Assembly: GCF_900104575.1 (NCBI RefSeq)
Contig: NZ_LT629731.1
Coordinates: forward strand, 880,189 to 944,188
DNA from: Bacillus tuaregi
Lineage (GTDB): Bacteria; Bacillota; Bacilli; Bacillales; Cytobacillaceae
DNA length: 64,000 nucleotides
Reading direction: 5' to 3'
In this document: in pieces, positions 1 through 19,347 of the stretch
Numbering within the stretch: position 1 is the first letter of the stretch
Layout: the number at the start of each line of letters is the position of its first letter
Notes under the pieces: generated by a model
What the model was told of the DNA's origin: nothing
The model's input: the letters and a program-made list of their open reading frames with translations, nothing else
The model's database searches: none
Translations under genes and position numbers: made by a program

Positions 1-19
1 TTATGTATCAATATTTAAT

Positions 20-57
20 CTAAACAAACCATCAGTGGAAAAAATCCCCACTGATGG
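20..57 (-). terminator. Terminator of nspC
   Basis: A 10-bp perfect stem (CCATCAGTGG at 29-38 against 48-57) is followed on the minus strand by a T-rich tract. It lies directly after the nspC stop. Confidence 0.85.
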
Positions 58-65
58 AGTCATTA

Positions 66-1205
66 TTATGATAATCGGTTGCTATAATCCTCAAAGCCAA
101 ACTGTCTAATCACTTTAATACCTTCTTCATCATTATAGGAAGCGATAGAAGGCAGGTTTACCCCATTAAACATATGGTTTTTCACCATTGTATAGTGGGC
201 CATGTCCGTGAAGACCACCTTATCACCAGGCTTTAACGGCTGTTTGAAGGAATAATCACCAATCACGTCGCCAGCAAGGCAGGTCATACCGCCAAGTCGG
301 TACGTGTATTCATTCTCATTCGGCTTGCCGGCATCGATAATCGTTGGTCGATACGGCATTTCGAGTACATCCGGCATATGGCAGGTTGCGGATGTATCAA
401 GAATGGCAATTGGCATACCATTATCAACAATATCAAGCACTGTTGTTACAAGATAACCGGTATTCAAGGCAATCGCTTCACCAGGCTCTAAATAGATATC
501 CACGTCATATTTGTTTTTCATAAAAAGAATGGATTCCACTAAGGTGTCAATATCATAATCGGGTCTTGTAATATGATGACCACCACCAAAGTTCAGCCAT
601 TTCATTCCTTTTATATACTCACCAAACTTTTCATCAACCACTTTGATCGTACGAGCAAGCGTATCGGAATTCTGCTCACACATCGTGTGGAAATGCAAGC
701 CGTCAATCCCGTCAAGCTCATCTGGTTTAAAGTTATCTAAGGTAACGCCAAGTCGAGAAAACTTATAGCAAGGGTCATACAGTGCGGTCTCAATCTCGGA
801 ATATTCCGGGTTGATGCGAATCCCCGCTTCAATTTTTTTCGGATGGTTCTTCACCTTGTCCTTAAATTTCTGCCACTGTGGAAAGGAATTGAACACAATA
901 TGATCAACATAGCCTAAAAGCTCATCAATCTCACCATCTGAATAGGCGGGGGCATACGCATGAACCTCCTTGCCCATTTTCTCATAGCCTAAGCGAGCCT
1001 CAAATAAGGAGCTGGAGGTGACACCCTTTAAATATTGACCAACTAAAGGAAATACAGAATGCATGGAAAATCCCTTTAGTGCGAGCAGAATACTGCATCC
1101 TGTCCGCTCTTGAACGGAGTTTAAAATTTCAAGATTCTTTATTAACAGTCTTTCATCTACCACATAGGCAGGTGACGGTAAAGCAGCAAAATCAATTTTC
1201 TTCAT
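66..1205 (-). CDS. nspC: Carboxynorspermidine/carboxyspermidine decarboxylase
   Basis: PLP-dependent, fold-III (alanine-racemase-like) decarboxylase of 379 residues, the usual NspC length. It removes the carboxyl group from carboxynorspermidine or carboxyspermidine, the last step of the alternative spermidine/norspermidine pathway in the cytosol. The N-terminal motif LALKGFS places the presumed PLP lysine at K44. HFHTMCEQ, NFGGGHH and the C-terminal LDTSATCHMPD segment with its cysteine are typical of the family. The start has a GAGGT ribosome site. The preceding gene on the same strand, 10 bp away, encodes the partner dehydrogenase, so the two form an operon ended by a strong hairpin. Whether spermidine or norspermidine is made cannot be told from sequence alone. 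Confidence 0.93.
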   Translation of the reverse strand: MKKIDFAALPSPAYVVDERLLIKNLEILNSVQERTGCSILLALKGFSMHSVFPLVGQYLKGVTSSSLFEARLGYEKMGKEVHAYAPAYSDGEIDELLGYVDHIVFNSFPQWQKFKDKVKNHPKKIEAGIRINPEYSEIETALYDPCYKFSRLGVTLDNFKPDELDGIDGLHFHTMCEQNSDTLARTIKVVDEKFGEYIKGMKWLNFGGGHHITRPDYDIDTLVESILFMKNKYDVDIYLEPGEAIALNTGYLVTTVLDIVDNGMPIAILDTSATCHMPDVLEMPYRPTIIDAGKPNENEYTYRLGGMTCLAGDVIGDYSFKQPLKPGDKVVFTDMAHYTMVKNHMFNGVNLPSIASYNDEEGIKVIRQFGFEDYSNRLS

Positions 1206-1215
1206 TTCATATACC

Positions 1216-2415
1216 TCAATCTAATAGCGTTGGCGAGAAGCTTTCTTGCCATGGCAGCCCATTTTTATTTAATTCGTCCATAAATGGATCGGGGTCAAAC
1301 TCTTCGACATTGTATACACCAGGCTTTTTCCAGATCCCTTTCATGACAAGCATGGCACCGATCATGGCTGGAACACCCGTTGTATAGGAAATGGCTTGTG
1401 AGCCAACTTCTCGATAGCATTCCTGATGGTCACAAACATTGTACACATAATAGGTTTGCGGTTTCCCATCCTTAACACCTTGAATAATACAGCCGATATT
1501 GGTTTTCCCTTTCGTTCTTGGTCCTAATGATGCTGGATCAGGGAGGACGGCTTTAAGAAACTGCAGGGGAATGATTTCTTTTCCTTCAAATTCGATTGGC
1601 TCGATGGAAGTCATTCCAACATTTTCAAGTACCTTTAAATGCGTTAAATACTGTTCAGAGAAGGTCATCCAAAAACGAATGCGCTTAACTCCTTTAATAT
1701 GAACGGCTAAAGACTCTAATTCCTCATGGTACATCAGGTAGATATCCTTAGGACCGATTTCCGGTAAATCATAGACCTTTTTTTCTGCTAATGGCGGTGT
1801 TTCAACCCATTCCCCATTCTCATAATAACGGCCGTTTGCGGTTATTTCACGAATATTAATTTCCGGGTTAAAGTTTGTTGCAAATGGGTATCCGTGGTCA
1901 CCTGCATTGGCATCGACAATATCAATCGTATGAATTTCGTCAAAATAATGCTTTTGCGCATAGGCTGTAAATACGCCTGTCACACCTGGATCAAAGCCGC
2001 TACCAAGAAGTGCGGTCAGCCCGGACTGCTCAAACTTTTCTTTATAGGCCCATTGCCACTTGTACTCAAATTTCGCAGTCTCAGGCGGCTCATAATTTGC
2101 AGTATCCACATAATGTACACCTGTTGCAAGACAAGCATCCATGATGGTTAAATCTTGATAAGGGAGAGCAACATTGATCACTATATCTGGTTTGAAGCTT
2201 TTTATGAGGTCAATCACTTCTTCAGTATGGTCAGCATCCACTTGTGCTGTAGTGACTTTTGTTTTGCCGCCCTCAACTTTATTTTTTATTGCCTCACATT
2301 TTGCAAGCGTTCTGCTTGCAATACAAATTTCCTCAAAGACATCCGGGTTCTGACAGCATTTATGTACAACAACATTGGCTACGCCGCCAGCGCCAATAAT
2401 CAACGCTTTTCCCAA
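1216..2415 (-). CDS. Carboxynorspermidine/carboxyspermidine dehydrogenase (saccharopine dehydrogenase family)
   Basis: A 399-residue member of the saccharopine-dehydrogenase-like family. It starts with a Rossmann dinucleotide motif (ALIIGAGGVANVV, about residues 4-16). In the CASDH branch the enzyme reductively condenses aspartate semialdehyde with putrescine or diaminopropane, using NADPH, to give the carboxylated polyamine that NspC then decarboxylates. The C-terminal part carries family segments such as YTTGVPAMIGAMLV. The start is TTG at 2415, chosen because a GGGGGGAT ribosome site lies 4 nt upstream. Adjacency to nspC decides between CASDH and true saccharopine dehydrogenase. It is the first gene of the two-gene operon. 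Confidence 0.88.
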   Translation of the reverse strand: MGKALIIGAGGVANVVVHKCCQNPDVFEEICIASRTLAKCEAIKNKVEGGKTKVTTAQVDADHTEEVIDLIKSFKPDIVINVALPYQDLTIMDACLATGVHYVDTANYEPPETAKFEYKWQWAYKEKFEQSGLTALLGSGFDPGVTGVFTAYAQKHYFDEIHTIDIVDANAGDHGYPFATNFNPEINIREITANGRYYENGEWVETPPLAEKKVYDLPEIGPKDIYLMYHEELESLAVHIKGVKRIRFWMTFSEQYLTHLKVLENVGMTSIEPIEFEGKEIIPLQFLKAVLPDPASLGPRTKGKTNIGCIIQGVKDGKPQTYYVYNVCDHQECYREVGSQAISYTTGVPAMIGAMLVMKGIWKKPGVYNVEEFDPDPFMDELNKNGLPWQESFSPTLLD

Positions 2416-2550
2416 TCTAATCCCCCCTAATCAATATTGAAAAGCCAATCAGGCTGATTATACAGAAATTATAAAAAGCAATCAATAAAATACGACAAAA
2501 TATGAGTCTCCTTTTTAGTAATGTCGTAATCGCTCTTGTCTATTCCTATT

Positions 2551-2600
2551 TTAAAAAAAAAGAAAAAATAAAACTCCTGCTGACTCGTAATCAGCAGGAG
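2551..2600 (-). terminator. Terminator of the formate dehydrogenase gene
   Basis: A 10-bp perfect stem (CTCCTGCTGA at 2574-2583 against 2591-2600) is followed on the minus strand by TTTTATTTTTTC and further T runs. It isolates the gene to its right from the polyamine operon. Confidence 0.85.
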
Positions 2601-2628
2601 CTGGGGAATGGGAAATGCATTGAAACCA

Positions 2629-4695
2629 TTATGCCTTTAATGATTTAATGCTTACTGCACATGCTTTAAATTCAGCGGTTCCAGAAATAGGGTCATATTC
2701 GTTTAGCGTTAAGACATTTGTTGGAACGTCACTGAAATGGAAGCTCATGAACACAAGACCTGGAGCAACCTGCTCTGTGACCTTGACTTTTACGGTAAGG
2801 GTGCCCCGTCTTGACGATACCTCAACCAAATCACCCGTTTCAATGCCAAGTCTTTCGGCATCGAGTGGATGAATATCAAGGCTTTCCTCTTTTTGCTTTA
2901 TCTTCACTCCGCTTGCATAGAAACGGGTTTGTGAATGTGTGTTATAGGATTCATATCTTCTTCCTGTTGTTAGTGTAAATGGATACTCTTCATCAGGAAG
3001 CTCAAGCGGCTCGGTATAGGTAACAGGTACAAATGGTGACAATTGCGCATCTGTAGTCTTATTTTCATGGAACCGCGTGTGAAGAATAAATGTTCCTGGA
3101 TGTGACTCATCAGGACAAGGATAGTGGAGACTATATTCCTTATCAAGCCGGGAATATGGCATACCTCCATACATTTCCCAGGCAAGTGCTCTTAGCTCAT
3201 CCCAAATTTCTTCACTGCTTTGATAGCTCATTGGGTAACCAAGCCGGGTAGATAGATCACATAAAATCTCCCAATCATCCTTCGTATTTGGATGTGGAGT
3301 GACTGCCTGGCGGACACGCTGAATGCGGCGGTCGGTGTTCGTATAGGTTCCTTCCACCTCGCCCCATGATCTTGCAGGTAGAACGACATCAGCAAGCCTA
3401 GCTGTTTCCGTTAAGAAAATATCCTGCACAATTAACAAATCAAGCTTTTCCAGCAGCTGCTTTGTATGGTTCATATGAACATCTGCCATCAGTGGATTTT
3501 CACCGATGACATAAAGAGCTTTCACTTCCCCGCGTTCCATTCGCTCAAAGGTTCTTGTCTGCGTATCGCCTGCGATGGGATTGATGGATACCTTCCATGC
3601 CTTTTCGAAGCGGGCACGGTACTCATCATTTGTTAAGCTTACAGCACCTGGCAGCTGGTTTGGAAGACAGCCCATATCACCGGCACCTTGGACATTGTTT
3701 TGTCCGCGCAGCGGCATAATTCCACAGCCTTCTTTGCCAATATGGCCTGTCAGTAAGGCAAGATTGGCAACATCAAAGACATTGTTGACACCGCAATGAT
3801 GCTCTGTAATCCCAAGTGTATAGGCAATCATGGCACTGTCTGCCGTTGCGTACTCCCTTGCTGTGTCCACAATATCCTGTGCTGACAAGCCGGTTATCGT
3901 AGCGGCATATTCCGGTGTATACCTTTCCGTCATTTCTTTTAATCTATCAAAGTCATTTGTATAGTTTTCAATAAAAGCAGGGTCATATAATTGTTCATTA
4001 ATAATGACATGAATCATCGCATTCATCAGCGCAATATCTGTCCCGACATGAAGCGGCAGGTGACGATGAGCACTTTTGACCATGTCAATTTTGCGCGGGT
4101 CAATGACAATCAGCTTCATCCCTGATTTGACTGCCTTCTTCATTCGATTCGCAATAATCGGATGTGCTTCTGTTGTATTGGAGCCCATTAGTAAAAGGAC
4201 CTCTGTACGATCAAAGTCCTCGAGTGTGTTTGTTGGAAACCCACTACCAAATATAGTTGCCAGACCGGCAACGCTTGGAGCGTGTCAGGTTCGGTTACAG
4301 CCGTCAATATTATTGCTGCCGATAGCTGCTCTCATGAATTTTTGCGTTATATAGTTTACTTCATTCGTACTTCTGGCAGTTGCAAAGGCCGTAATCGCCT
4401 CTGGACCAAATTCAAGCTTAATGGCTTTTAATTTATCAGCGATATAGCTATAAGCCTCTTCCCAAGTGGTTTCCACCAGCTGTCCGGCTTTACGGATAAG
4501 CGGTGAAGTTAAACGGCTTTTAGCATGAACATATTCATAAGCAAAGGAACCCTTCACACATGTCTGTCCTTTATTGACAGGAGCATCTTTATCTCCACGG
4601 ATTTTGACAATCCGGTTTTCTTCTACTTCAACAACTAATCCGCAGCCGGTACCGCAATAGCCGCAAACGGTTTTAAACTTTGTTGTCTCTCCCAT
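2629..4695 (-). CDS. fdhF: Selenocysteine-containing formate dehydrogenase alpha subunit (in-frame TGA at 4285-4287 read as Sec137)
   Basis: Molybdopterin (bis-MGD) oxidoreductase of 688 residues that oxidises formate to CO2. The N-terminal [4Fe-4S] site is C11-x2-C14-x3-C18 with C46 and then VKG. The frame continues without shift through a single TGA: NIDGCNRT-U-HAPSVAGL matches the Sec140 region of E. coli FdhF (ARV-U-HGPSVAGL), and a SECIS-like stem-loop follows. Beyond it come MGSNTTEAHP and the C-terminal molydopterin-binding domain (LTTGRRYESYNTHSQT). The start at 4695 has a GGAGG site 7 nt upstream; a longer frame would begin inside a repeat element. Length resembles E. coli FdhF (715 aa), without the long ferredoxin-like N-terminus of other Bacillus formate dehydrogenases. 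No electron-transfer partner lies next to it. Without Sec insertion the product would end after 136 residues. Confidence 0.9.
4256..4287 (-). promoter_or_regulatory. Bacterial SECIS element
   Basis: The UGA (4287-4285) is followed by 12 nt and then a perfect stem GUUGCC/GGCAAC (4272-4267 and 4261-4256) closing the loop GGUCU. The first loop G is 19 nt after the UGA, the same spacing and the same GGUCU apex as the E. coli fdhF SECIS, the SelB binding site. Confidence 0.85.
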
Positions 4696-4730
4696 ACATA
4701 CTCCTCCCATTTGGATCATTATGGTGCTTC

Positions 4731-4921
4731 TAACTTCATTCAGCAAAAGTCCTCCACTTCTACAAGTGGGGGATGAAGGCAAATGGTTCTTCGATTCAGT
4801 GGGGGTTCAAACCCCGGCTGAATGAAGTTAAGCCTCCGGTGGATGTCACGGATTTTTTATAGGTAGTTTATCGAGCGAGCTCGATAAAAATCCGGACGCA
4901 AATTCGTCGGGCGAATTTGAT
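4731..4921 (+). repeat. Interspersed structured repeat, copy A (short form)
   Basis: About 191 bp. It begins TAACTTCATTCAGC, has the inverted GCTGAATGAAGTTAA in the middle, then the hairpins TTATCGAGC/GCTCGATAA and AAATTCG/CGAATTT, and ends TTTGAT. It lacks the roughly 37-bp GTACC/GGTAC hairpin segment of the long copies. It ends only about 35 bp upstream of the fdhF start, in opposite orientation to that gene. It resembles the palindromic ends of IS200/IS605-type elements, but contains no transposase. Confidence 0.85.
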
Positions 4922-5077
4922 TTCGAATTGGGGTTTATTTCATAAATGAAGAATCGTTTAGTAAGATATATTCGTAAACGCTTTCGAACATTTCATATTG
5001 AATACATTAAGCCCCATATTTATTATACAAAATAATAAAAACAGCAACGGTGACGGTTGTCACAAAAGTGTGAACAA
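4922..5077. other. AT-rich spacer with possible minus-strand promoter elements
   Basis: No gene seen. On the minus strand TATAAT (5027-5022) has a TTGCTG 14 nt upstream, which is short for a sigma-A promoter. At 5057-5077 there is an imperfect palindrome with core TCACA-N4-TGTGA. These could drive fdhF through repeat A, but this is weak. Confidence 0.25.
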
Positions 5078-5118
5078 TAAAGAACCCAACAAAACAATAG
5101 AGGATGCTTGTCGGGTTC
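5073..5118 (-). terminator. Terminator of the VanW-family gene
   Basis: GAACCCGACAA pairs with TTGTTGGGTTC (one mismatch) on the minus strand, followed by TTTATTGTT, 20 bp after the stop codon. Confidence 0.7.
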
Positions 5119-5139
5119 AAAGAAGAAAGGTAATAAAGC

Positions 5140-6060
5140 TTATCCTGCCTGATTTATTTTCGTTTCAGGTGGTAGTTTATTTTTTGTATTCGGAATTTTA
5201 TTAGGTTGAAATTGTATTTCATCTGAGGAAAAGACAAGGACAATCATCATACCGTGAATTGCCTTCGCTTTAATTAAAATTGGTTCATTATATATATTCT
5301 TGAAGGTAAAGTCTGGTCCGTACCAGCTGACCGTTGCATCACGCCCAGGCGGAACATAACGGACACGTTTACTATGAGAGTACCGCTCCATTATTTTCAT
5401 ACCGGAACGGTCTACAGCGTTAAAGAGAGTAGAGGATACCTGGCAAATACCGCCGCCAATTCCTTCAGAAAGCTCTCCCTTGACAATGATGGGTGCCGAT
5501 AAATAGCCCTTTTCCTTTGTCCGTTTGCCAACTATTTTATTAAAGGAAAATACTTCTCCAGGAAATACAACATAATTATCAATCGCTTCAGCGGCCAAAA
5601 AAATATTATGAGACCGTTCTTTATTTCGGCTATTAAAGTAAGTAACATAATGGCCAATGCGTTTGTTCTTGATATTAGACAGTATTTCACTATCAACGCG
5701 GGGATATATAGTCCTTGTTGGAGCCGGCAGGGTAGAAGCTGGACCATTTTGATAAAAATAAGTAAAAAGCTGCTCCATAAATGCTTTTTGGTTCAATTCA
5801 ATGCCCGCTTGCTCCGGAATAATCCGGCCTGAATCATCAATCTCGGCGTCAACTGCTTCTCTTCTAATCTGGCTATCGAGCTGATCTGACAACTGATTGA
5901 GCTTTTGCATATCCGGAAGTGGGAATCCGGGTATAGGTGAAGTTAAATCGGATTGACTGATGATCATGATGGGTTCATTTTCATAGGTAATGGTCAGTTG
6001 ATCAGAATCCTGCTGCTGCTGGAGAACAAGAAAAAGTCCTAAAATCCATGCTAAATTCAC
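5140..6060 (-). CDS. VanW family protein
   Basis: A 306-residue protein with the VanW domain in its C-terminal half (about residues 150-280): VVFPGEVFSFN, GGGICQVSSTLFNAV and ERYSHSKRVRYVP are the family hallmarks. The N-terminus carries a short hydrophobic stretch (VNLAWILGLFLVL) that could be a signal peptide or anchor, so the protein probably acts outside the membrane. The biochemical role of VanW domains is unknown; some occur near vancomycin-resistance or peptidoglycan genes, but nothing here supports resistance. The start was set at the second GTG (6060) because GAGGT lies 7 nt upstream; the first GTG at 6069 overlaps that site. It stands as a single gene with its own terminator. Confidence 0.85.
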   Translation of the reverse strand: MNLAWILGLFLVLQQQQDSDQLTITYENEPIMIISQSDLTSPIPGFPLPDMQKLNQLSDQLDSQIRREAVDAEIDDSGRIIPEQAGIELNQKAFMEQLFTYFYQNGPASTLPAPTRTIYPRVDSEILSNIKNKRIGHYVTYFNSRNKERSHNIFLAAEAIDNYVVFPGEVFSFNKIVGKRTKEKGYLSAPIIVKGELSEGIGGGICQVSSTLFNAVDRSGMKIMERYSHSKRVRYVPPGRDATVSWYGPDFTFKNIYNEPILIKAKAIHGMMIVLVFSSDEIQFQPNKIPNTKNKLPPETKINQAG

Positions 6061-6139
6061 TCTATTCACCTCAACATTAGTATTAGAAGGGTGAATATTT
6101 TTATGTGAAAAAAGTGAAAATTCCTGGTGAAAAAGTCTA

Positions 6140-6817
6140 TCAGCAAATTTTTTGAATTAATTGCGGTGAATTATTCTTTGGCGAATTAACTAAGCTAGAC
6201 ACCTCATAGGCTTCGATTAATTCCTCTGGAAGCGGCTTTAATAATTGATTCAATTCCCGTGTATCATGGTTCGACGGATTTAACCAAGTCTGTTCATCCT
6301 CTTTTTTCAGAATAACAGGCATCCGGTCATGAATATCCTTTACCACTGCATTGGGTGTCGTTGTGATGACAGTACAAGTATAAATTGTGTTTCCACTAGG
6401 TTCTTTCCATCTCTCCCAAAGTCCTGCCATCGCAAAAAGCTCATCTGATTTCAGCTTAATACGCATGGGTGTTTTATTCTTTTGATCCTGTCTTTTCCAC
6501 TCGTAAAAGCTGTCAGCAATCACTAAACAGCGTCTTTTTTTATAGGCCTCACGAAAGCTAGGTTTTTCGGCTAACGTTTCAGCTCTTGCATTAATGAGCT
6601 TGAAGCCAATTTTTTCATCCTTTGCCCAGGAAGGGATGAATCCCCATTTTAAATAACCTAAGCGATTTCTGGTGCCGTCATTAATAACTGATAATACCGA
6701 ATGAGAGGGGGCTATGTTGTAGCTCATATGATAGAGCTCCTCTTCCAGCGCTGCCTCAATTTCAAATCGATTAATAATCTCTGTAAAATCAGCTGTTAAA
6801 GTAAACCTTCCGCACAT
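6140..6817 (-). CDS. yedK: SOS response-associated peptidase (SRAP/HMCES/YedK family)
   Basis: A 225-residue SRAP protein. The family crosslinks its N-terminal Cys2 to abasic sites in single-stranded DNA and so shields them. After Met removal Cys2 is exposed (MCGRFTLT). The other conserved residues are visible: Asn and Arg in INARAETL, Glu in DSFYEWK, and His in HDRMPVIL. Length is normal. The start is fixed by Cys2 and by a GAGGTGAT ribosome site. B. subtilis has homologues (YoaM, YoqW). It appears monocistronic. No LexA box was identified with confidence upstream. Confidence 0.95.
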   Translation of the reverse strand: MCGRFTLTADFTEIINRFEIEAALEEELYHMSYNIAPSHSVLSVINDGTRNRLGYLKWGFIPSWAKDEKIGFKLINARAETLAEKPSFREAYKKRRCLVIADSFYEWKRQDQKNKTPMRIKLKSDELFAMAGLWERWKEPSGNTIYTCTVITTTPNAVVKDIHDRMPVILKKEDEQTWLNPSNHDTRELNQLLKPLPEELIEAYEVSSLVNSPKNNSPQLIQKIC

Positions 6818-6925
6818 GCTCCATCACCTCTTACTGTAGATACAATAATTGTAACCTTCCTAGTAAGGGAATAGCAAAGGGCTGGAGCTGGAATTAAAGC
6901 GGTATCAAGGTAGAAGAGGGCCTGT

Positions 6926-6983
6926 TCCAAACATACTTGTGAAGTATGAATGATCGTGGCGTAATCTTTGGAACAAGCACCAT
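6926..6983 (-). other. Imperfect stem-loop downstream of the MerR-like gene
   Basis: On the minus strand CTTGTTCCAAA pairs with TTTGGAACAGG, with an inner CATACTT/AAGTATG hairpin. No T tract follows, so it is not a clear intrinsic terminator; it may be a 3' mRNA structure. Confidence 0.4.
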
Positions 6984-6997
6984 TAAGATCATCTAGT

Positions 6998-7948
6998 CTA
7001 TGACCAAGGCTTCCACCATTTTTTCTTTTCCTTCTTTGTAGCCGCGACTTCTCTGTAGCTTGAAATCATTTCTTGGAAAATTTCCTCTCTTTTTTGGACT
7101 TCCTCCTGTGATTGCTTGAGCTCATTAATAGATTCAATTAAATAATCCTGCTGAACATCAAAGAATTGGGAGACGCTTTTCATTTCCTCCTTGGCTTCAT
7201 TCACCTTTTTCGATACCTTCTCTAGGAGCTTCTGATTGTCTCTTTCCGCCATTTTAGCATTTGCGTTAATCCGCTTAGCAATCCTTTCGTAAGTAGATTC
7301 CGAGCCCTTCAGAATATCGTAGGAAAGAGTTCCGAAGGTTTCGGAGGTCTTTTCCGAAGCCCTCACGATGGCATTGGAGATTTCCTCAACCTCTATTTTT
7401 CTTTTATCATTAGATCTTTGAATCGACTTAGATATCTCTCTTACGGTGACGAGAGAAGAATTTGAAATTTCATTTTTCATGCCATCCAGCAAGTCATGAT
7501 TACTTTGCTTGATTTCATATTTAATGTCACGTTTAATTTCGCTTAACAGATCCTTTTTAAAGGCCTCCATTGCTTGTTGAAAGGCTTCTAGGTTTGACGG
7601 CTGGAGTTCATTGACTGGTGCGGGTTGAAGGGTATTTTCTTGTTGGGGCTGTGACGGTGGTGCTGCTTCGAATGCTTCGGAAGCAGGGTCTAAATCTTGG
7701 TTTAGGTGTTTTTCCAATAAGGTTCTAATCATCCCTTTTGGGACATTCTGCTCCCGCATTTCCTTTACCTTATTTAAAAGTTTAATTTCATTCTCCGTAT
7801 AATATCGAGCGCCCTGCTGGGTTCGAGGGATCTTGAGAAGCCCGTTTAAATCCTTTTCCCATTGTCTAATGGTTCCGGTTGGAATATTTAAAATTTGTGA
7901 TACTTCTTTAATTGAATAAGCACGTAGGATTTGTCTGTTATTCATCAT
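6998..7948 (-). CDS. MerR-type helix-turn-helix protein with long coiled coil (RacA-like architecture)
   Basis: 316 residues. The N-terminus is a MerR-like winged helix: YSIKEVSQILNIPTGTIRQW, then GARYYTENEIKLL (about residues 7-55). A proline/glutamine-rich linker follows (about 95-125), then a long charged heptad-rich stretch (about 130-295) predicted to be a coiled coil, and a basic aromatic tail ending KKKWWKPWS. The layout recalls the chromosome-anchoring protein RacA and other MerR-coiled-coil proteins of Bacillus; the tail could touch membrane or DNA. The start at 7948 has AAAGGAA about 7 nt upstream; a longer frame to 8026 lacks such a site. It is neither a standard effector-binding MerR regulator nor clearly RacA, so its function is open. 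Confidence 0.75.
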   Translation of the reverse strand: MMNNRQILRAYSIKEVSQILNIPTGTIRQWEKDLNGLLKIPRTQQGARYYTENEIKLLNKVKEMREQNVPKGMIRTLLEKHLNQDLDPASEAFEAAPPSQPQQENTLQPAPVNELQPSNLEAFQQAMEAFKKDLLSEIKRDIKYEIKQSNHDLLDGMKNEISNSSLVTVREISKSIQRSNDKRKIEVEEISNAIVRASEKTSETFGTLSYDILKGSESTYERIAKRINANAKMAERDNQKLLEKVSKKVNEAKEEMKSVSQFFDVQQDYLIESINELKQSQEEVQKREEIFQEMISSYREVAATKKEKKKWWKPWS

Positions 7949-8232
7949 TCCATTCCTTTCTGACAAATTGAATTTGGTTTTAGATATATTCTGTCTCGTG
8001 GCTACTGTTTTCCTGCTGTATGACAAAAGCTATCAAAAGAAGATGGGTTTCAACAAAAGAGCAAAAAGGCCAGGTTATGAAATGAATAATAAAGTATAGT
8101 AACTAAATATAGAATTCCAAGCGTGGAATAAACGGGATATAGAAACTCCCAATCGTCAAATTTCCACAAATTTTTCACGAAAATAGTAGAGGACGTTCTT
8201 GACATTTGATAAAATTCTAATAAATAAGATAT
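7949..8232. other. Intergenic region left of repeat B
   Basis: No gene seen. A TTGACA with AT-rich sequence downstream (about 8198-8230) could be a weak plus-strand promoter reading into repeat B and fhs, but no good -10 hexamer sits at 16-18 bp spacing. Confidence 0.3.
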
Positions 8233-8456
8233 TTAACTTCATTCAGCAAATGTTTTTTGTACCGAAAGCTTGCGACAGGTACAGAAGTTCTCCACTTCTA
8301 CAAGTGGGGGATGAAAGCAAATGGTCCTTCGATTCAGTGGGGTTCAATCCCGGCTGAATGAAGTTAAGCCTCCGGCGGATGTCACGGATTTTTTAAAGGT
8401 AGTTTACCCGAGCGAGCTCAGGTAATCCGGACGTAAATTCGACGGGCGAATTTGAT
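8233..8456 (+). repeat. Interspersed structured repeat, copy B (long form)
   Basis: 224 bp. TTAACTTCATTCAGC at the left has its perfect inverted copy GCTGAATGAAGTTAA about 120 bp further on. The 3' hairpin is the variant TTACC/GGTAA type shared with copy D. It ends TTTGAT, 164 bp before the fhs start and in the same orientation as fhs. Confidence 0.9.
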
Positions 8457-8620
8457 CGATAGCACAGGTCATCATCACTATTCCTGAAAGGATTTTTTTT
8501 TGTGACAATTCTCAATACTTTATTCAGGCATTTTCCGATTTGGATTATTGTCTGGGTAAGGAGATAATGATTTTGACAATAATACTTTTACTAAATGATT
8601 GAGATTTGAGGAGAGGTTTT

Positions 8621-10291
8621 ATGAAAACAGATGTTCAGATTGCACAAGAAGCTTCAATAAGACCAATTAATGAAATAGCAGAATACCTTGGAATACATGA
8701 TGATGAATTAGAGCTATACGGAAAATATAAAGCAAAAGTCTCCTTAGATGTATTAGAGCGTCTAAAGGATAAACCTGATGGGAAGTTAATTTTAGTAACG
8801 GCCATTAATCCTACTCCAGCTGGGGAAGGGAAAACAACGGTCAATGTCGGACTTTCAATGGGGTTAAATAAAATTGGGAAGAAGACCATTACGGCGTTAA
8901 GAGAGCCATCACTTGGACCGGTATTTGGGATAAAGGGTGGTGCAGCTGGGGGCGGCTATGCTCAGGTCATTCCAATGGAGGATATTAATCTTCACTTTAC
9001 CGGTGATTTTCATGCCATTACATCAGCCCATAATTTGCTTGCTGCCATGCTGGATAATCATCTACATCAGGGCAATGCACTTAACATTGATCCGAAAAGG
9101 GTTGTATGGAAAAGAGCCCTTGATATGAATGACCGTGCTCTTCGTAACATTATTATTGGCCTTGGAGGAAAAGGGGACGGCTTTATTAGGGAAAGCGGCT
9201 TTGATATAACGGTTGCTTCAGAGATTATGGCTATTCTGTGCCTGGCAACAAGTTTTAGTGATTTGAAGGACAGGCTATCAAGAATGGTAGTGGCCTATTC
9301 AACGGATGGAAGTGCTGTAACCGCAGGCGACTTAAAAGCAACTGGTGCTATGACACTATTATTAAAGGATGCTATAAAACCTAATTTAGTACAAACGCTT
9401 GAAAATACACCAGCATTTATCCATGGTGGTCCTTTTGCCAACATCGCCCATGGCTGTAACTCCGTTATGGCTACAAGAATTGGAATGAAGATAGCTGACT
9501 ATGTTGTGACCGAAGCCGGATTTGGAGCAGATTTGGGTGCGGAGAAGTTCTTTCATATTAAAAGCAGATACGCCGGGTTAAAGCCTGATGCTGTCGTTGT
9601 TGTCGCGACAATACGAGCGTTAAAGATGAACGGCGGAGTAACAAAAGCTGAACTCGGTGATGAAAATCTGAAGGCTCTCAATGATGGTTTTGTCAACCTT
9701 GAAAGACATCTTCAAAATATTAATAAATTTGGGGTCCCGGCATTGGTGGCAATCAATCAATTTCCTACAGATACTGAAGCTGAAATTCATTTACTAACAG
9801 AAAGATGCAGAGAAAAAGGAGTCGATGTTATTTTAACAGACGTTTTCACAAAAGGTGGAGAGGGAGCTGTGGAGCTGGCTGAAAAAGTGGTGGAGGTTTG
9901 TGCCACTAAACCATCACACTATCGTCCGCTTTATGCTGTAGAGGGATCTATTGAAGAGAAAATTACGACCATTGCAACGGAAATTTATCGGGCAGAACGG
10001 GTTGAATTAACTGCTGAAGCTAAGCGGCAAATAGAGGAAATCACAACGCTTGGTCTGTCTCAGATGCCAGTATGTATTGCCAAAACCCAATACTCTTTTT
10101 CTGATAATCCAGCGCTGCTTGGAGCTCCAACTGGATTTACGATAACCGTTAGAGAAATAAAAGTAAATGCAGGTGCCGGTTTTATTGTGGCCATAACCGG
10201 TACGATCATGACGATGCCCGGATTGCCAAAGGTTCCGGCTGCTAATGGAATGGATATCACGGAAACCGGAAACATTATCGGTCTTTCTTAA
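8621..10291 (+). CDS. fhs: Formate--tetrahydrofolate ligase
   Basis: 10-formyl-THF synthetase: formate + THF + ATP gives 10-formyl-THF + ADP + Pi. The 556-residue length is standard. The P-loop [11 protein letters not shown] lies at residues 63-73. Other family segments are [26 protein letters not shown]-type [18 protein letters not shown], and the C-terminal [17 protein letters not shown]. The start at 8621 has GAGGAGAGG just upstream. FolD follows after a 16-bp gap and fchA after that, so the operon turns formate into methylene-THF in the cytosol. B. subtilis lacks this gene; it is typical of formate-using clostridia and some Bacillaceae. Confidence 0.97.
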
Positions 10292-10307
10292 TAACAGGAG
10301 GTAATTT

Positions 10308-11183
10308 ATGGGAATCAAATTAGCCGGAAAACCGGTTGTCGAAAACTTAAGAGAACAAATCAAAGCAAGAGTAGCCGTTCTCAACGAAAAGCAAGTAGCA
10401 CCTACATTGCTTTTAATCAGAGTCGGGCAACGTGAGGACGATATTTGGTATGAAAGAAGTATTTTAAAAAATTGTAACCTGCTTGGCATTCAATGCCAGG
10501 TAAGAGAGCTTCCTATAGATGTCACAATGGATGAACTAAAGCAGGTATTCCAGGAAGAAAACGATAACCCCAATGTTCATGGAATTATGATTTTCAGACC
10601 TCTGCCGGAACAGCTTGACCCGGAAGAAATTCGAAATCTAATCGACCCAGCGAAGGACATTGACTGCATGTCGCCTGTCAATCTTGAAAAAGTATTTGAA
10701 GGGAATAGCAATGGGTTTGCACCGTGTACGCCAAAAGCTGTAATTGAGCTTCTAAAGCATTATGATATTCCATTGCAAGGCGCCAATGTGGCTGTGGCGG
10801 GCAGAAGCTTGGTCGTCGGCAAGCCGCTTGCGATGCTGCTTTTAGATGAGCACGCAACTGTGACGATTTGTCATTCTAGAACGAAGGATATGCCGGCTGT
10901 GACAGGAAAAGCAGATATTGTCGTTGCAGCGATTGGCAAAGCAAAGTTCATGACGGAAGAGTACTTCACTGAAGGGCAGATTGTTGTGGATGTTGGGATC
11001 AATGACGACGGCAATGGAAAAATTGCCGGAGATGTTGATTACGATGCTGTGTTTGATAAAGTAAAAGGCATTACGCCCGCTACAGGTGGGATTGGTCTCA
11101 TTACAACAACCATATTACTGAACCATGTCGTACAGGCTTGTGAAAATTTAACAAATGGCCGTAAGGAGCATAGTCCAGTATAA
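10308..11183 (+). CDS. folD: FolD-family methylenetetrahydrofolate dehydrogenase, cyclohydrolase residues replaced
   Basis: A 291-residue FolD homologue that should interconvert methenyl-THF and methylene-THF with a nicotinamide cofactor. The Rossmann motif GRSLVVGKP (165-173) and KDID (116-119) are kept. The cyclohydrolase residues are not: in the Y-V-x-x-K motif the sequence is Y48-E-R-S-I52, so the catalytic Lys (human K56) is Ile, and the VQLPL motif reads IFRPL, so the catalytic Gln (human Q100) is F96. After the conserved Asp119, the usual GFH is CMS. I infer a dehydrogenase-only enzyme whose missing step is done by FchA, encoded next. GGAGG precedes the ATG by 8 nt. It is probably a paralogue of a normal housekeeping folD elsewhere. 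Confidence 0.88.
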   Translation: MGIKLAGKPVVENLREQIKARVAVLNEKQVAPTLLLIRVGQREDDIWYERSILKNCNLLGIQCQVRELPIDVTMDELKQVFQEENDNPNVHGIMIFRPLPEQLDPEEIRNLIDPAKDIDCMSPVNLEKVFEGNSNGFAPCTPKAVIELLKHYDIPLQGANVAVAGRSLVVGKPLAMLLLDEHATVTICHSRTKDMPAVTGKADIVVAAIGKAKFMTEEYFTEGQIVVDVGINDDGNGKIAGDVDYDAVFDKVKGITPATGGIGLITTTILLNHVVQACENLTNGRKEHSPV

Positions 11184-11257
11184 GGATGAAGCGGGAAGGA
11201 CTGATATTGCCTTCCTTTCTATTTTTATTTATTTTTATTCAGAACGGAGGAATTACC

Positions 11258-11884
11258 TTGCTAGAAAAAAGTAGCAATCAATTTATTGAAGAGCTTTCCT
11301 CAAAGGCCCCTATTCCCGGTGGAGGCGGAGCCTCAGCATATGTCGGGGCATTAGGAATGGCATTGGGAAGTATGGTTGGGAATCTAACGATTGGAAAGAA
11401 GAAATATAAAGATGTCGAAGAGGATGTAAAAGTGCTTCTCGAAAAATCTGAAACGATCATTCGAAATTTAAAAAGTCTGGTCAGTAAGGATGCAGAGGTA
11501 TTTTATCCCTTATCACAGGCCTATGGAATGCCCTCTACTACTGAAGAGGAAAAAAAGAAAAAGGATGAGGTTCTACAAGCGGCTCTAGTGGATGCGACAA
11601 TGGTTCCGCTAGAAATTGCTAGAAACTGCGTTGATGCTATCCATTTACATGAAGAATATGCCCGCAAAGGAACTCGCATTGCCATTAGTGATGTAGGCGT
11701 TGGAGTGATTTTTTGTAAAGCGGCTCTTCAAGGGGCAAAGCTGAATGTCTTAATTAATACAAAGATTATGAAGGATGCAGAGCTGAAAAAGAAGGTTGAG
11801 ACTGAATTAGCTGAAATCGAGAGAATGGGTTTAGCAAAGGCAGACGAAATCTATCGTGAAGTTGAAAGCATGCTGCAATCTTAA
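11258..11884 (+). CDS. fchA: Methenyltetrahydrofolate cyclohydrolase FchA (formiminotransferase-cyclodeaminase family)
   Basis: A 208-residue protein of the FTCD C-terminal/cyclodeaminase family, the length of clostridial FchA. It hydrolyses methenyl-THF to formyl-THF or the reverse. The glycine-rich N-terminal motif PIPGGGGASAYVGALGMALG (about residues 14-33) binds folate in this family; the rest is largely helical. The start is TTG at 11258, with GGAGG 7 nt upstream; upstream in-frame codons would encode an unlikely leader. It sits about 75 bp after folD. Because the adjacent FolD lacks cyclohydrolase residues, FchA probably supplies that activity. A glutamate formiminotransferase role is less likely, as no histidine-use genes are near. 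Confidence 0.9.
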   Translation: MLEKSSNQFIEELSSKAPIPGGGGASAYVGALGMALGSMVGNLTIGKKKYKDVEEDVKVLLEKSETIIRNLKSLVSKDAEVFYPLSQAYGMPSTTEEEKKKKDEVLQAALVDATMVPLEIARNCVDAIHLHEEYARKGTRIAISDVGVGVIFCKAALQGAKLNVLINTKIMKDAELKKKVETELAEIERMGLAKADEIYREVESMLQS

Positions 11885-11947
11885 AAGAGTTGATCGTAAG
11901 GAGTGTCAGATACTACTATAAAAGTGGTGTCAGACGCTCTTTTTTGT

Positions 11948-12175
11948 TTAACTTCATTCAGCAAATGCTTTTTGTACCGAAAGCTTGCGACAGGTACAGA
12001 AGTCCTCCACTTCTACAAGTGGGGGATGAAGGCAAATGGTCCTTCGATTCAGTGGGGGTTCAAACCCCGGCTGAATGAAGTTAAGCCTCCGGCGGATGTC
12101 ACGGATTTTTTAGGGGTAATTTATCGAGCAAGCTCGATAAAAATCCGGACCCAAATTCGGCGGTGCGAATTTGAT
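11948..12175 (+). repeat. Interspersed structured repeat, copy C (long form)
   Basis: 228 bp with a perfect 15-bp terminal-to-internal inverted repeat (TTAACTTCATTCAGC). The 3' stem is the TTATCGAGC/GCTCGATAA type with loop AA. It lies between fchA and the formate channel gene, in their orientation, ending 123 bp before that start. Confidence 0.9.
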
Positions 12176-12298
12176 AGGAATGAGATGCTCTAGTAATAAA
12201 TAACAAAATTGAATGGACACACTTTTGTCATTGCCTTTCTCGTACTGATTGTGATAATTTCACATTGTTGGGTAAAAGCAACGGAGAGGTGGAAATAT

Positions 12299-13114
12299 AT
12301 GAGTTACTATAATCCCAAAGAGATTGCTGATATCTCTATTAAAAAAGGGGTAGAAAAAGTAGAGTCATCCAAATTATCTATGGCGATCCTTGGCTTTTTG
12401 GGAGGGGCCTTTATCTCATTAGGATATCTAGCATATATTCGTGTAACGGGCACGATGCCGCATGAATGGGGAAGTTTGGTCACCTTTATCGGGGCAGCCG
12501 TTTTCCCGGTTGGGCTAGTATTGGTCTTAATTGCTGGTGGAGAACTTCTAACTGGTAATATGATGGCGGTGAGCATTGCCTATTTTGCTAGGAAAATTAG
12601 CTTCACTCAATTAATGAAGAACTGGCTGCTTATTGCTTTTTATAATCTCCTTGGAGCACTATTTATTGCTTACTTTTTTGGACATTTTGTGGGCTTGACT
12701 GAAGGGGCTTTTTTAGAAAAGACGCTACATACTGCTGAAGCGAAGGTAAATGATCCATTTTGGGTAGCGTTTGTTTCCGGAATTGGATGTAACTGGCTTG
12801 TGGGGATTGCGGTTTGGTTATGTTACGGAGCAAAGGATGTCGCTGGAAAAATTCTAGCGATTTGGTTTCCAGTCATGACTTTTGTATTAATTGGATTTCA
12901 ACACGTTGTGGCGAATATGTTTATTATTCCAGCAGCTATCTTTGCCGGACATCTATCCTGGACGGAATTTGTGTTCAATGTCATTCCTGTCTTTTTAGGT
13001 AATGCGGTTGGAGGAGCAGTCTTTGTCAGTCTCATGTATTTTCTGGTTTATCAAAAGGAAGCTTCAAAAATTGGCGCCTTTTCTGTTGATAAGGATATTA
13101 AAAAAGCCGGCTAA
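12299..13114 (+). CDS. Formate/nitrite transporter family channel (FocA-like)
   Basis: A 271-residue integral membrane protein of the FNT family, which form pentameric channels for formate, nitrite or hydrosulfide. About six transmembrane helices are evident. The family signature segments GGELLTGNM, GIGCNWLVGIAVWLCYGA and GFQHVVANMF (with the central His of formate channels) are intact. The ATG at 12299 is preceded by GAGAGGTGG at good spacing; earlier in-frame codons give an extra hydrophobic leader without a site. Its place after fhs-folD-fchA makes formate the likely substrate, but sequence alone does not exclude nitrite. Its link to the operon is interrupted by repeat C, so it may have its own promoter. 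Confidence 0.9.
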   Translation: MSYYNPKEIADISIKKGVEKVESSKLSMAILGFLGGAFISLGYLAYIRVTGTMPHEWGSLVTFIGAAVFPVGLVLVLIAGGELLTGNMMAVSIAYFARKISFTQLMKNWLLIAFYNLLGALFIAYFFGHFVGLTEGAFLEKTLHTAEAKVNDPFWVAFVSGIGCNWLVGIAVWLCYGAKDVAGKILAIWFPVMTFVLIGFQHVVANMFIIPAAIFAGHLSWTEFVFNVIPVFLGNAVGGAVFVSLMYFLVYQKEASKIGAFSVDKDIKKAG

Positions 13115-13124
13115 TGGCTGTGAC

Positions 13125-13168
13125 GCTGTTTGAAAAAATCTGCTCGATTCTTTCAAACAGCCATTTTT
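13125..13168 (+). terminator. Terminator of the formate channel gene
   Basis: GCTGTTTGAAA (13125-13135) pairs with TTTCAAACAGC, followed by a T run ending near 13168. Confidence 0.8.
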
Positions 13169-13176
13169 TACTATCT

Positions 13177-13208
13177 AAAAAGGCGATACCTAAGGGTACC
13201 GCCTTTTT
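13177..13208. terminator. Bidirectional terminator
   Basis: GGCGATACC and GGGTACCGCC form a stem flanked by AAAAA on the left and TTTTT on the right, so it can serve both convergent genes. Confidence 0.75.
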
Positions 13209-13220
13209 GAGTCTATTTGA

Positions 13221-13511
13221 TTATGATTGCTTAACTTCCTGCTTAACTTCTTCCCAATAATATTGAACAGCTTCTTTACGGACAACCTCAGGACATTCTA
13301 CTTCATCAGCCCAGTCATCATAATTGTTCTTACCGTGGATATGTTGAATTTCAACTGAATAGTACTTTTCTTTATATTTAAAAATTACTACAATCATTTC
13401 ATCGAAGCCAGCATCATCGTTTCCAAGTTCCTGAACAAACTCTAGACCGTAATCAGGGTGATCTTTTCTTTCTGCTACAGATTCTAAAATAACATCTTTA
13501 GGGAACTTCAT
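13221..13511 (-). CDS. Conserved hypothetical protein, 96 aa
   Basis: A small acidic soluble protein of 96 residues that I do not recognise. It has a mixed alpha/beta pattern (EMIVVIFKYKEKYYSVEIQHI suggests two beta strands) and an acidic C-terminal helix ending EEVKQEVKQS. No signal peptide, membrane helix or metal-binding motif is visible. AAGGAG lies 8-9 nt before the ATG and a terminator-like stem follows the stop, so it is a real single-gene unit. Coding quality matches the neighbours. Confidence 0.75.
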   Translation of the reverse strand: MKFPKDVILESVAERKDHPDYGLEFVQELGNDDAGFDEMIVVIFKYKEKYYSVEIQHIHGKNNYDDWADEVECPEVVRKEAVQYYWEEVKQEVKQS

Positions 13512-13754
13512 TTTATTCTCTCCTTACTTTTTATCCCGCTATTGATAACGGAATTACTATCAAATATTCAGCAGGTAATGTGCCCTGACTGATGGATGTA
13601 TTCTTTATAAGCGTATTTTAATACGTTACTAGACAAAAAGAAATAAAAAATATCAGAAAAAATTGTCTAATTTGTGAATCAAAGAGGGCATGAATCGAAC
13701 AAGCTCACATAATTAGTATTGGATAACAACCTGAATATATCCTGAAATGAATGG

Positions 13755-14321
13755 CTACACATTTTGTCCTGAATTCCCTTTTTTCTTAGCCTGTTTTTTC
13801 AAGACGGCTTTCTTCATTCCCTTCACTAAGTATCCGCCTTTAAAACTTGTTGGTTCATAGGCAACCACAAAGGCCTTCGGAGCATCTTCATTTAAAATAT
13901 TCATTAGTTCCTTTTCTCTATTTCTTTTCACGACAATATCGAGCCGATATCGTCTGTTACCCTCGCGACCCTCACCTTCAAAAATCGTGACGCCAAAGCC
14001 TTCGCTTCTGAGCCTTTCAATTAATTCTGTATCATGATCGAGTAAGCTTACATTAACGGTTCGATATCCTATCGCTAATCTTCTTTCTAATAATCCTCCT
14101 AAAATGATTCCACCAGAATATCCTACAGAATAGGCAACCATATTCAAATAGTTCGACAGATCTGAAAAGATGATTCCTAAACTGATTACATAGATTAGTG
14201 CTTCTACACCGCCTAATAATGAAGCGATTTTTATCTCGCTTTTTACAAGAAATATTGTCCGAAGTGTTGTGAGTGGTACGATGACAAATTGCATCAATAC
14301 GATTAACAGTGCATCTAACAT
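13755..14321 (-). CDS. UPF0316/DUF2179 family membrane protein (YebE-like)
   Basis: A 188-residue protein of the UPF0316 family. The first about 85 residues hold three probable membrane helices (LLIVLMQFVIVPLTTLRTIF, ALIYVISLGIIFSDL, VAYSVGYSGGIILGGLLE). The C-terminal half is the soluble DUF2179 domain (VNVSLLDHDTELIERLRSEG, then LDIVVKRNREKELMNIL), a ligand- or sensor-type fold also found in YitT proteins. Function is unknown. The start at 14321 is preferred because of GAGGCG upstream; the longer frame from 14387 has no comparable site. Confidence 0.85.
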   Translation of the reverse strand: MLDALLIVLMQFVIVPLTTLRTIFLVKSEIKIASLLGGVEALIYVISLGIIFSDLSNYLNMVAYSVGYSGGIILGGLLERRLAIGYRTVNVSLLDHDTELIERLRSEGFGVTIFEGEGREGNRRYRLDIVVKRNREKELMNILNEDAPKAFVVAYEPTSFKGGYLVKGMKKAVLKKQAKKKGNSGQNV

Positions 14322-14590: not shown

Positions 14591-14782
14591 TTAACTTCAT
14601 TCAGCAGAAGTCCTCTACTTCTACAAGTCGGGGATGAATGCAAATGGTCCTTCGATTCAGTGGGGATTCAACCCCCGGCTGAATGTAGATAAGCCTCCGG
14701 CGGATGTCACGGATTTTTTAAAGGTAGTTTACCCGAGCGAGCTCAGGTAATCCGGACGCAAATTCGACGAGTGAATTTGATT
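14591..14782 (+). repeat. Interspersed structured repeat, copy D (short form)
   Basis: 192 bp. Like copy A it lacks the GTACC/GGTAC segment; like copy B it has the TTACC/GGTAA stem variant. The internal inverted copy is decayed (GCTGAATGTAGATAA). It ends 59 bp before aroD, in the same orientation. Confidence 0.88.
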
Positions 14783-14841
14783 GCTAGAGAGATGCAAAAC
14801 ATAACGAACCATTTGAGTATAAAGAGACGGAGTGGGAGAAA

Positions 14842-17906: not shown

Positions 17907-18134
17907 TTAACTTCATTCAGCAAATGCTTTTTGTACTTAAAGCTTGCGACAGGTACAGAAGTCCTCCACTTCTACATGTGGGGATGAATGCAAAATAGTA
18001 CTTTGATTCAGTGGGGGTTCAAACCCTGGCTGAATGAAGTTAAACCTCCGGCGGATGTCACGGATTTTTTTAAAGGTAGTTTATCGAGCAAGCTCGATAA
18101 AAATCCGGACGCAAATTCGACGGGCGAATTTGAT
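17907..18134 (+). repeat. Interspersed structured repeat, copy E (long form)
   Basis: 228 bp, with the perfect TTAACTTCATTCAGC/GCTGAATGAAGTTAA pair and the TTATCGAGC/GCTCGATAA stem with loop AA as in copy C. It lies between the 58-codon gene and the promoter of the tRNA cluster and is the last copy seen in the window. Confidence 0.9.
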
Positions 18135-18308: not shown

Positions 18309-18425
<117 letters not shown>

Positions 18426-18433
18426 ATGTGAAT

Positions 18434-18509
18434 GGAGGATTAGCTCAGCTGGGAGAGCATCTGCCTTACAAGCAGAGGGTCGGCGGTTCGAGCCCGTCAT
18501 CCTCCACCA
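18434..18509 (+). tRNA. tRNA-Val (TAC)
   Basis: Cloverleaf with anticodon loop CTTACAA; CCA encoded. First tRNA after the 5S gene. Confidence 0.97.
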
Positions 18510-18588
18510 TTTTTAGTAGCTAGTTATTAGTTGGTTAGGTAGAGTAATTCCCTAACAACTAAAAACTAACAACTAGTAACTAGAATTA

Positions 18589-18664
<76 letters not shown>

Positions 18665-18689
18665 TTTATGATTATAAAAACATTATTTT

Positions 18690-18765
18690 GAGCCATTAGC
18701 TCAGTCGGTAGAGCATCTGACTTTTAATCAGAGGGTCGAAGGTTCGAGTCCTTCATGGCTCACCA
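18690..18765 (+). tRNA. tRNA-Lys (TTT)
   Basis: Cloverleaf with anticodon loop CTTTTAA; CCA encoded. Confidence 0.97.
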
Positions 18766-18793
18766 AAGTTTTTTGCATAAGCAAAATAACTTT
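18765..18793 (+). repeat. Inter-tRNA hairpin, copy 1
   Basis: AAAGTT-TTTTGC pairs with GCAAAA-TAACTTT around a 4-nt loop. Near-identical hairpins recur at 19348 and 20374; they may guide tRNA precursor processing. Confidence 0.6.
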
Positions 18794-18799
18794 CCATAT

Positions 18800-18881
18800 G
18801 CGGGTGTGGCGGAATTGGCAGACGCACTAGACTTAGGATCTAGCGCCGCAAGGCGTGGGGGTTCGACTCCCTTCACCCGCA
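18800..18881 (+). tRNA. tRNA-Leu (TAG)
   Basis: Class II tRNA with variable arm; anticodon loop CTTAGGA. CCA not encoded. Confidence 0.97.
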
Positions 18882-18886
18882 TTAAC

Positions 18887-18961
18887 GCGGAAGTAGTTCA
18901 GTGGTAGAACACCACCTTGCCAAGGTGGGGGTCGCGGGTTCGAATCCCGTCTTCCGCTCCA
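18887..18961 (+). tRNA. tRNA-Gly (GCC)
   Basis: Cloverleaf with anticodon loop TTGCCAA; CCA encoded. Confidence 0.97.
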
Positions 18962-18967
18962 AATTTT

Positions 18968-19053
18968 GCCGGGGTGGCGGAACTGGCAGACGCACAGGAC
19001 TTAAAATCCTGCGGTAGGTGACTACCGTACCGGTTCGATTCCGGTCCTCGGCA
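18968..19053 (+). tRNA. tRNA-Leu (TAA)
   Basis: Class II tRNA with variable arm; anticodon loop CTTAAAA. CCA not encoded. Confidence 0.97.
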
Positions 19054-19095
19054 CTTTGCTTTTTATCATAGTAAAGCAAATGGATAGAAGTATAT

Positions 19096-19169
<74 letters not shown>

Positions 19170-19176
19170 CTTATTA

Positions 19177-19253
19177 CGGGAAGTAGCTCAGCTTGGTAGA
19201 GCACTTGGTTTGGGACCAAGGGGTCGCAGGTTCGAATCCTGTCTTCCCGACCA
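19177..19253 (+). tRNA. tRNA-Pro (TGG)
   Basis: Cloverleaf with anticodon loop TTTGGGA; CCA encoded. Confidence 0.97.
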
Positions 19254-19273
19254 TTAAATAGATGGATTATTTT

Positions 19274-19346
19274 GGGGCCTTAGCTCAGCTGGGAGAGCGC
19301 CTGCTTTGCACGCAGGAGGTCAGCGGTTCGATCCCGCTAGGCTCCA
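19274..19346 (+). tRNA. tRNA-Ala (TGC)
   Basis: Cloverleaf with anticodon loop TTTGCAC; CCA not encoded. Confidence 0.97.
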
Positions 19347-19347
19347 T

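Follow-up and report, generated by a model that had tools for sequence, protein, structure and literature searches.

Does a minus-strand frame for a formate dehydrogenase alpha subunit, interrupted by one in-frame TGA, encode a selenoprotein, or is the gene split, broken or misread? The frame lies near one end of the window, by which we mean the whole 64,000-nucleotide stretch of Bacillus tuaregi DNA that was analysed. On the evidence of the sequence and its relatives, the locus almost certainly encodes a cytosolic FdhF-type formate dehydrogenase containing selenocysteine (Sec), with UGA137 predicted to be decoded as Sec. The features on which this reading rests are as follows, in window coordinates.

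2629..4695, minus strand: fdhF, encoding the alpha subunit of a cytosolic-type formate dehydrogenase (688 codons, one of them for Sec, opening with ATG and closed by TAA)
4285..4287, minus strand: predicted Sec codon 137, in-frame TGA (CNRT-U-HAPSVAGL), present in 56/56 close relatives and aligned with X (Sec) of 1aa6
4701..4708, minus strand: likely ribosome-binding site of fdhF, GGGAGGAG, judged from the sequence
4256..4272, minus strand: SECIS upper hairpin GUUGCC-GGUCU-GGCAAC, with loop 4262-4266 at nucleotides 19-23 after the UGA
4242..4282, minus strand: possible lower SECIS stem, predicted from the single sequence (minimum free energy -16.3 kcal/mol)

One reading frame with a single TGA

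The first-pass annotation described one open frame from 4695 to 2629 broken by a single TGA at 4287-4285, and translation confirms this: the frame runs for 688 codons with TGA only at codon 137, and then reaches its stop. The remaining five frames of the same segment hold 26 to 61 stops each, and base composition predicts ~41 in 689 codons. Plain ORF calling splits the gene into a 165-amino-acid ORF (4782-4285, from an upstream TTG start) and a 519-amino-acid ORF (4188-2629). The expectation that automatic annotation would yield a pseudogene or two separate genes is therefore correct for simple ORF calling, but in the one RefSeq record consulted, that of E. coli, fdhF is annotated as one CDS across its TGA. 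The locus is a reminder to annotators that simple ORF calling cuts such a gene in two. Two pieces are also what would be expected of a pseudogene, that is, an fdhF broken by a nonsense mutation, although the frame holds no further stop in 688 codons.

Protein identity and conservation of the TGA

Read through the TGA, the protein scores 787.8 bits against TIGR01591, the NCBIfam equivalog model of formate dehydrogenase alpha subunits, above its cut-off of 666.25. Its domains occur in the expected order: PF04879 (Molybdop_Fe4S4) at residues 5-57, PF00384 (Molybdopterin) at 61-483 and PF01568 (Molydop_binding) at 573-680. The closest solved structures are HDCR FdhF (7qv7), F420 formate dehydrogenase, formate dehydrogenase 7bkb and E. 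coli FDH-H. In the alignment, the TGA column is printed as X (Sec) for two chains, 1aa6 and 9t1s, and as Cys for two others, 7qv7 and 7bkb. The claim that the TGA falls exactly at the active-site Sec position is borne out by E. coli FDH-H (1aa6). Four N-terminal Cys, a Lys, the U-His pair and the Arg of RGQNNVQG are kept among FdhF, E. coli FDH-H, HDCR FdhF and F420 formate dehydrogenase. In enzymes of this type the Sec or Cys, followed by His, belongs to the active site, and the Arg of RGQNNVQG is conserved.

A scan of genome contigs for fdhF gave 67 loci, 56 of them close (73-93% identity over the best segment) and 11 distant. The close loci come mostly from Bacillus, Neobacillus, Cytobacillus, Mesobacillus and Robertmurraya, two of them from one MAG, and with the window fdhF they form the 57-sequence alignment used below. 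All 56 carry TGA at codon 137. A stop that sits at the active-site Sec position and is common to every close relative argues against a pseudogene. It likewise argues against a sequencing or assembly error replacing a Cys codon, since the same TGA recurs in 56 loci from ~55 other assemblies. In addition, 21 other fdhF-bearing genomes of the 50-genome sample described below have one TGA per fdhF match, counted at any position and in a set that may overlap with the 56 loci. The suggestion that the TGA might be a misread TGC or TGT is in practice refuted by the relatives, and we assign this explanation a negligible probability.

The 11 distant loci, from Megasphaera and Veillonella at 38-40% identity, have Cys at the Sec position in nine cases and TGA in two. 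That a Cys form exists in nine of these 11 loci lends some plausibility to the idea that the UGA is read as Cys or Trp, by general readthrough or through a changed code. A changed code, however, would be expected to place TGAs in many genes, and with table 11 the large neighbouring ORFs of the window are uninterrupted. Further evidence on this idea comes from the decoding genes and their distribution.

A hairpin downstream of the UGA

The stem of the hairpin that follows the UGA has 6 bp, and its loop begins at 4266, the 19th nucleotide after the UGA, leaving a spacer of 18 nucleotides. The first-pass annotation had the loop start 19 nucleotides past the UGA and likened this to E. coli fdhF; we confirm that GGUCU stands at +19 in both. 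The SECIS of Moorella, for which a structure with SelB has been solved, reportedly resembles this hairpin. The possible lower stem is absent from the alignment consensus, which retains the upper hairpin. Against Rfam, the only signal at the locus is SECIS_3 (RF01989), at 22.1 bits compared with a gathering score of 63.

A bacterial SECIS model set out in the legend to Fig. 2A of PMC13188914 calls for a loop of 3-9 nucleotides with G in the first two positions and a stem of 4-16 bp; it also limits the distance from the UGA to 16-37 nucleotides and the energy to -7.5 kcal/mol or lower. The fdhF hairpin agrees with this model, its bare energy of -7.7 kcal/mol being narrowly inside the limit (-9.1 with flanks). 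The folding energy is only modestly unusual relative to shuffled sequences (z of -1.6 and -2.1). As a control, 38 of the 2762 TGA trinucleotides on both strands of the window precede an uninterrupted hairpin that fits the model.

Constraint on the nucleotide sequence is more telling. In 111 fourfold-degenerate codon columns the residue is an unvarying A, G, P, T or V; only two of these, codons 143 and 144, also keep a single third base throughout, and both lie inside the hairpin. Leu145 is moreover CTG in 57/57 sequences. The frozen third bases at codons 143 and 144, together with CTG at 145, indicate selection on the nucleotide sequence where a SECIS is expected.

The stem also covaries. On the 57-sequence alignment, 342/342 cells are paired and five of the six pairs are invariant. 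The variable pair, 24-36, is U-A in 41 sequences, C-G in 14 and U-G in two. It occupies the position of the bulged U of the upper stem, a conserved feature of prokaryotic SECIS elements according to a review (PMC8704476); in the fdhF hairpin the bulge is missing and the position is base-paired throughout the 57 sequences. Against 500 shuffles, the stem exceeds all for cells paired, for cells changed on both sides and for covariation score, but it fails to do so for two others, which are counts of pairs or of pair types. Because these shuffles ignore relatedness, the covariation test is supporting and not decisive, and the freezing of synonymous sites is the stronger support for a SECIS. With a model that fits only 38 of 2762 TGAs, frozen synonymous sites and covariation across 57 sequences, the hairpin is not due to chance. 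A conserved, covarying hairpin downstream of the TGA is also difficult to reconcile with a pseudogene.

Sec decoding genes in the genome

The source genome (4.86 Mb in 16 contigs, completeness 100) was searched for selA, selB, selD and a tRNA-Sec, the check proposed in the first-pass annotation, and all four were found. The tRNA-Sec scores 56.9 bits (Rfam cut-off 47) and has the anticodon TCA according to ARAGORN. selA scores 560.7 bits, and selB, at 350 bits, is the sole match above its cut-off. SelB winged-helix domains are present, and in a PDB search with SelB the best 60 of 150 chains align with its EF-Tu-like region. selD, at 406.3 bits, itself contains a single in-frame TGA, at KAG-U-GC. 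Downstream of this TGA, the SECIS test for uninterrupted stems picks a hairpin at +34. The fold shows a further hairpin at +18, and its total energy is no better than that of shuffled sequences (z -0.06). These genes do not form a single operon: selA lies next to selD in divergent orientation, selB is ~107 kb away and the tRNA-Sec ~0.5 Mb away.

With tRNA-Sec, selA, selB and selD all present, the selenoprotein reading is not contradicted by a lack of decoding genes. Together with the shared TGA and the hairpin, these genes leave a broken fdhF an exceedingly improbable explanation, and the original proposal of a selenoprotein in place of a split or broken gene is upheld by them and by the TGA of 56/56 close relatives. 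A full Sec decoding set also argues against reading the UGA as Cys or Trp.

By analogy with what is established for the family, we infer Sec insertion, enzymatic activity and the direction of the reaction to be as follows. SelA would make Sec-tRNA from Ser-tRNA(Sec), with selenophosphate supplied by SelD. When a ribosome reaches UGA137, SelB-GTP carrying Sec-tRNA(Sec) and bound to the downstream hairpin, with GGUCU at +19, would deliver Sec and so avert termination. Sec137, beside His138, would coordinate the Mo/W bis-MGD centre, and FdhF would interconvert formate and CO2, the electrons passing via a single 4Fe-4S cluster.

Termination at Sec UGA codons under selenium limitation is a known phenomenon, and the 136-amino-acid product ending at the UGA might be a functional protein made in a regulated way when selenium is short. 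The sequence gives no sign of this, and the fragment would include the Fe-S domain but reach no further than the beginning of the Mo domain (Pfam ranges); we consider such a role highly improbable.

A second Sec-type formate dehydrogenase

A molybdopterin search of the same genome returned five matches, two of which contain a TGA: fdhF and the following gene.

G000:C16:197,669-200,644 (L153 7670-10645, where L153 is G000:C16:190000-208000): FDH-N alpha (FdnG), a second Sec-type formate dehydrogenase, with TGA at codon 189

FdnG has 991 codons, a TIGR01553 score of 1262 bits and a twin-arginine-like N-terminus. Judged by eye, its cluster has an fdhD-like gene before it and, after it, genes that resemble those for an iron-sulfur (beta) subunit and a cytochrome subunit, along with fdhE and genes of Mo-cofactor synthesis. 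The fdnG SECIS has a GCC-GGUCU-GGC tip at +19, as in fdhF, but with a bulged U, and because of this bulge it was missed by the SECIS test for uninterrupted stems. The genome likely contains at least three Sec genes, namely fdhF, fdnG and selD. Bulged and bulge-less SECIS elements in one genome offer a clean test of what SelB requires.

Distribution of the Sec trait in the family

We counted selA by profile cut-off in the 193 genomes of the family Cytobacillaceae. It is above cut-off in 172 of them, compared with 40 of the 121 genomes of a class sample, three of these 40 being family members. All six order-mates from other families among the genomes listed for the class sample, a list that leaves out 61 further negatives, are without selA above cut-off. 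For this lineage, the statement that Bacillaceae seldom use Sec is therefore wrong: in Cytobacillaceae the Sec trait is nearly fixed.

Fifty family genomes were analysed further: all 21 without selA above cut-off, and 29 of the 172 selA-positive genomes, picked across genera. The sample is thus enriched for selA-lacking genomes. Under stricter filters, tRNA-Sec is present in 31 of the 50, which are all 29 selA-positive genomes plus G179 and G183, whose assemblies are 81 and 80% complete; it was not found in the other 19. fdhF, at E 1e-150 or better, occurs in 22 genomes (20 of the 29 selA-positive ones, G179 and G183) as 23 matches, each with one TGA. At this threshold, beyond which more distant homologues would not show, none of the 19 genomes without tRNA-Sec has fdhF.

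selD is above cut-off in 37 of the 50 genomes. It has a TGA inside in all 29 that are selA-positive, with a TAA besides the TGA in G010, and no stop in the other eight, among them G174, whose fragmentary selD begins at profile position 113. The motif K-(G/A/S)-G-x-GC, scored at 30 loci (L015 and L119-L147) out of 39 matches, has TGA in 23/23 selA-positive and Cys in 7/7 selA-lacking loci. These counts indicate that fdhF is seen only with Sec decoding, and that the Sec or Cys form of SelD follows Sec decoding. That fdhF and TGA-bearing selD occur only where tRNA-Sec is present counts further against decoding of the UGA as Cys or Trp, which we regard as extremely improbable.

At E 1e-150, nine of the 29 selA-positive genomes lack fdhF (G001, G007, G008, G024, G050, G092, G098, G163 and G188), yet they still carry tRNA-Sec, selA and a TGA-containing selD. 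Sec is thus not retained for the sake of fdhF alone, and fdnG is a candidate for a further reason. The family consists of Gram-positive bacteria with many named isolates, in which Sec is the rule and apparent natural losses are available for comparison.

We favour, with some reserve, a joint reading of these results: Sec is nearly fixed in the family; the two selenoprotein genes differ in their response to its loss, since the sampled genomes without Sec decoding show no close fdhF, while any retained selD has the Cys form; the fdhF SECIS is frozen and bulge-less, with one covarying pair; and a single SelB would read both the bulge-less fdhF form and the bulged fdnG form.

Gene neighbourhood

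No electron partner for FdhF was recognised in the genes adjoining fdhF. FeFe hydrogenase (PF02906) has no match in the genome, and among 14 control genomes was detected in Thermotoga maritima; a hydrogen-dependent CO2 reductase was rejected because the hydrogenase was not found. Formate hydrogenlyase genes (HycE-type, HycB) were not recognised by eye among ORFs of at least 80 amino acids in window positions 1-14000. A divergent C1 set, ~4 kb from fdhF, comprises fhs, a folD-like gene (by eye), a gene with a cyclodeaminase domain and a formate/nitrite transporter. We would guess that FdhF supplies or removes formate for these folate C1 genes.

A conserved electron-transfer operon around fdhF was rejected after 12 window genes were compared by blast with the 67 loci, with flanks of at most 6 kb per locus. 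Window neighbours are retained in L019 (six), L021 (four) and L026 (one), and elsewhere the hits are limited to fhs here and there (L081, L084, L085) or weak matches to focA (L029, L075). In 41 of the 56 close relatives, fdhF lies <500 nucleotides downstream of, and on the same strand as, a member of one protein family (for example, L033:4072-5865); in L021 the upstream sequence is too short for this neighbour to be scored. The one member scanned has MHYT, PAS, HisKA and HATPase domains, and a histidine kinase-type neighbour hints that fdhF expression might be signal dependent. In the window and in L019, the gene upstream of fdhF encodes a VanW-like protein, the window copy being below VanW cut-offs.

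Just downstream of fdhF, in window positions 66-2415 on the minus strand, are nspC (carboxynorspermidine decarboxylase, above its cut-off) and a gene resembling that of carboxynorspermidine synthase, which at 432.6 bits does not reach the cut-off of 800. The two correspond to an alternative polyamine pathway. A SAM riboswitch lies at 55637-55844 and a large tRNA/5S rRNA cluster at 18309-20652, both on the plus strand.

An intergenic repeat of >100 bp occurs, always on the plus strand, at window positions 4731-4926, 8232-8462, 11947-12179, 14592-14787 and 18041-18071, the last being a match to the 31-base core only. The core has 100 matches in the genome (up to 1 mismatch) and none in a reversed control. 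Its orientation differs strongly between the chromosome halves: on contig C16, 50 copies are plus and seven minus before 2.06 Mb, and two are plus and 31 minus after it, this boundary having been chosen by eye. The repeat is possibly a non-autonomous element of IS200/IS605 type, elements that are linked with replication direction. With 100 matches genome-wide, the idea that the copy upstream of fdhF is a special regulator of this gene was set aside. Moreover, an exact-pattern search of L019, the nearest relative, for a 30-base part of the repeat gave no match.

Comparison with known systems

The Sec-type fdhF described here is real, ordinary and of a well-known kind, and Bacillales selenoproteins have been tabulated since 2006: Table 2 of Zhang et al. 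2006 (PMC1794560) gives three selenoprotein families and three selenoproteins for Firmicutes/Bacillales. Relative to that table entry, the present analysis counts the trait over a whole family. In excerpts of PMC12298126, Mesobacillus appears only in connection with selenium oxyanion reduction. Descriptions of nearly fixed Sec in the family, or of an unbulged fdhF SECIS, were not found in open-licence literature, which is a weak absence. The locus is real and well explained, and the finding is moderately useful.

The protein resembles E. coli FDH-H (FdhF, 1aa6; E 2.1e-164), with Sec in the same column and a GGUCU loop at +19, but the PDB chain is longer by 27 residues, and where the E. coli SECIS has a bulged U the position here is paired, as U-A or C-G. 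HDCR FdhF (7qv7) is the best PDB match, at 671 bits, and shares the stand-alone length and the N-terminal 4Fe-4S domain; unlike the B. tuaregi protein, the 7qv7 chain has Cys at the Sec position, and its FeFe hydrogenase partner has no counterpart found here. Within the same genome, fdhF and fdnG share an in-frame TGA and an upper hairpin at +19, whereas the bulged U is present only in fdnG.
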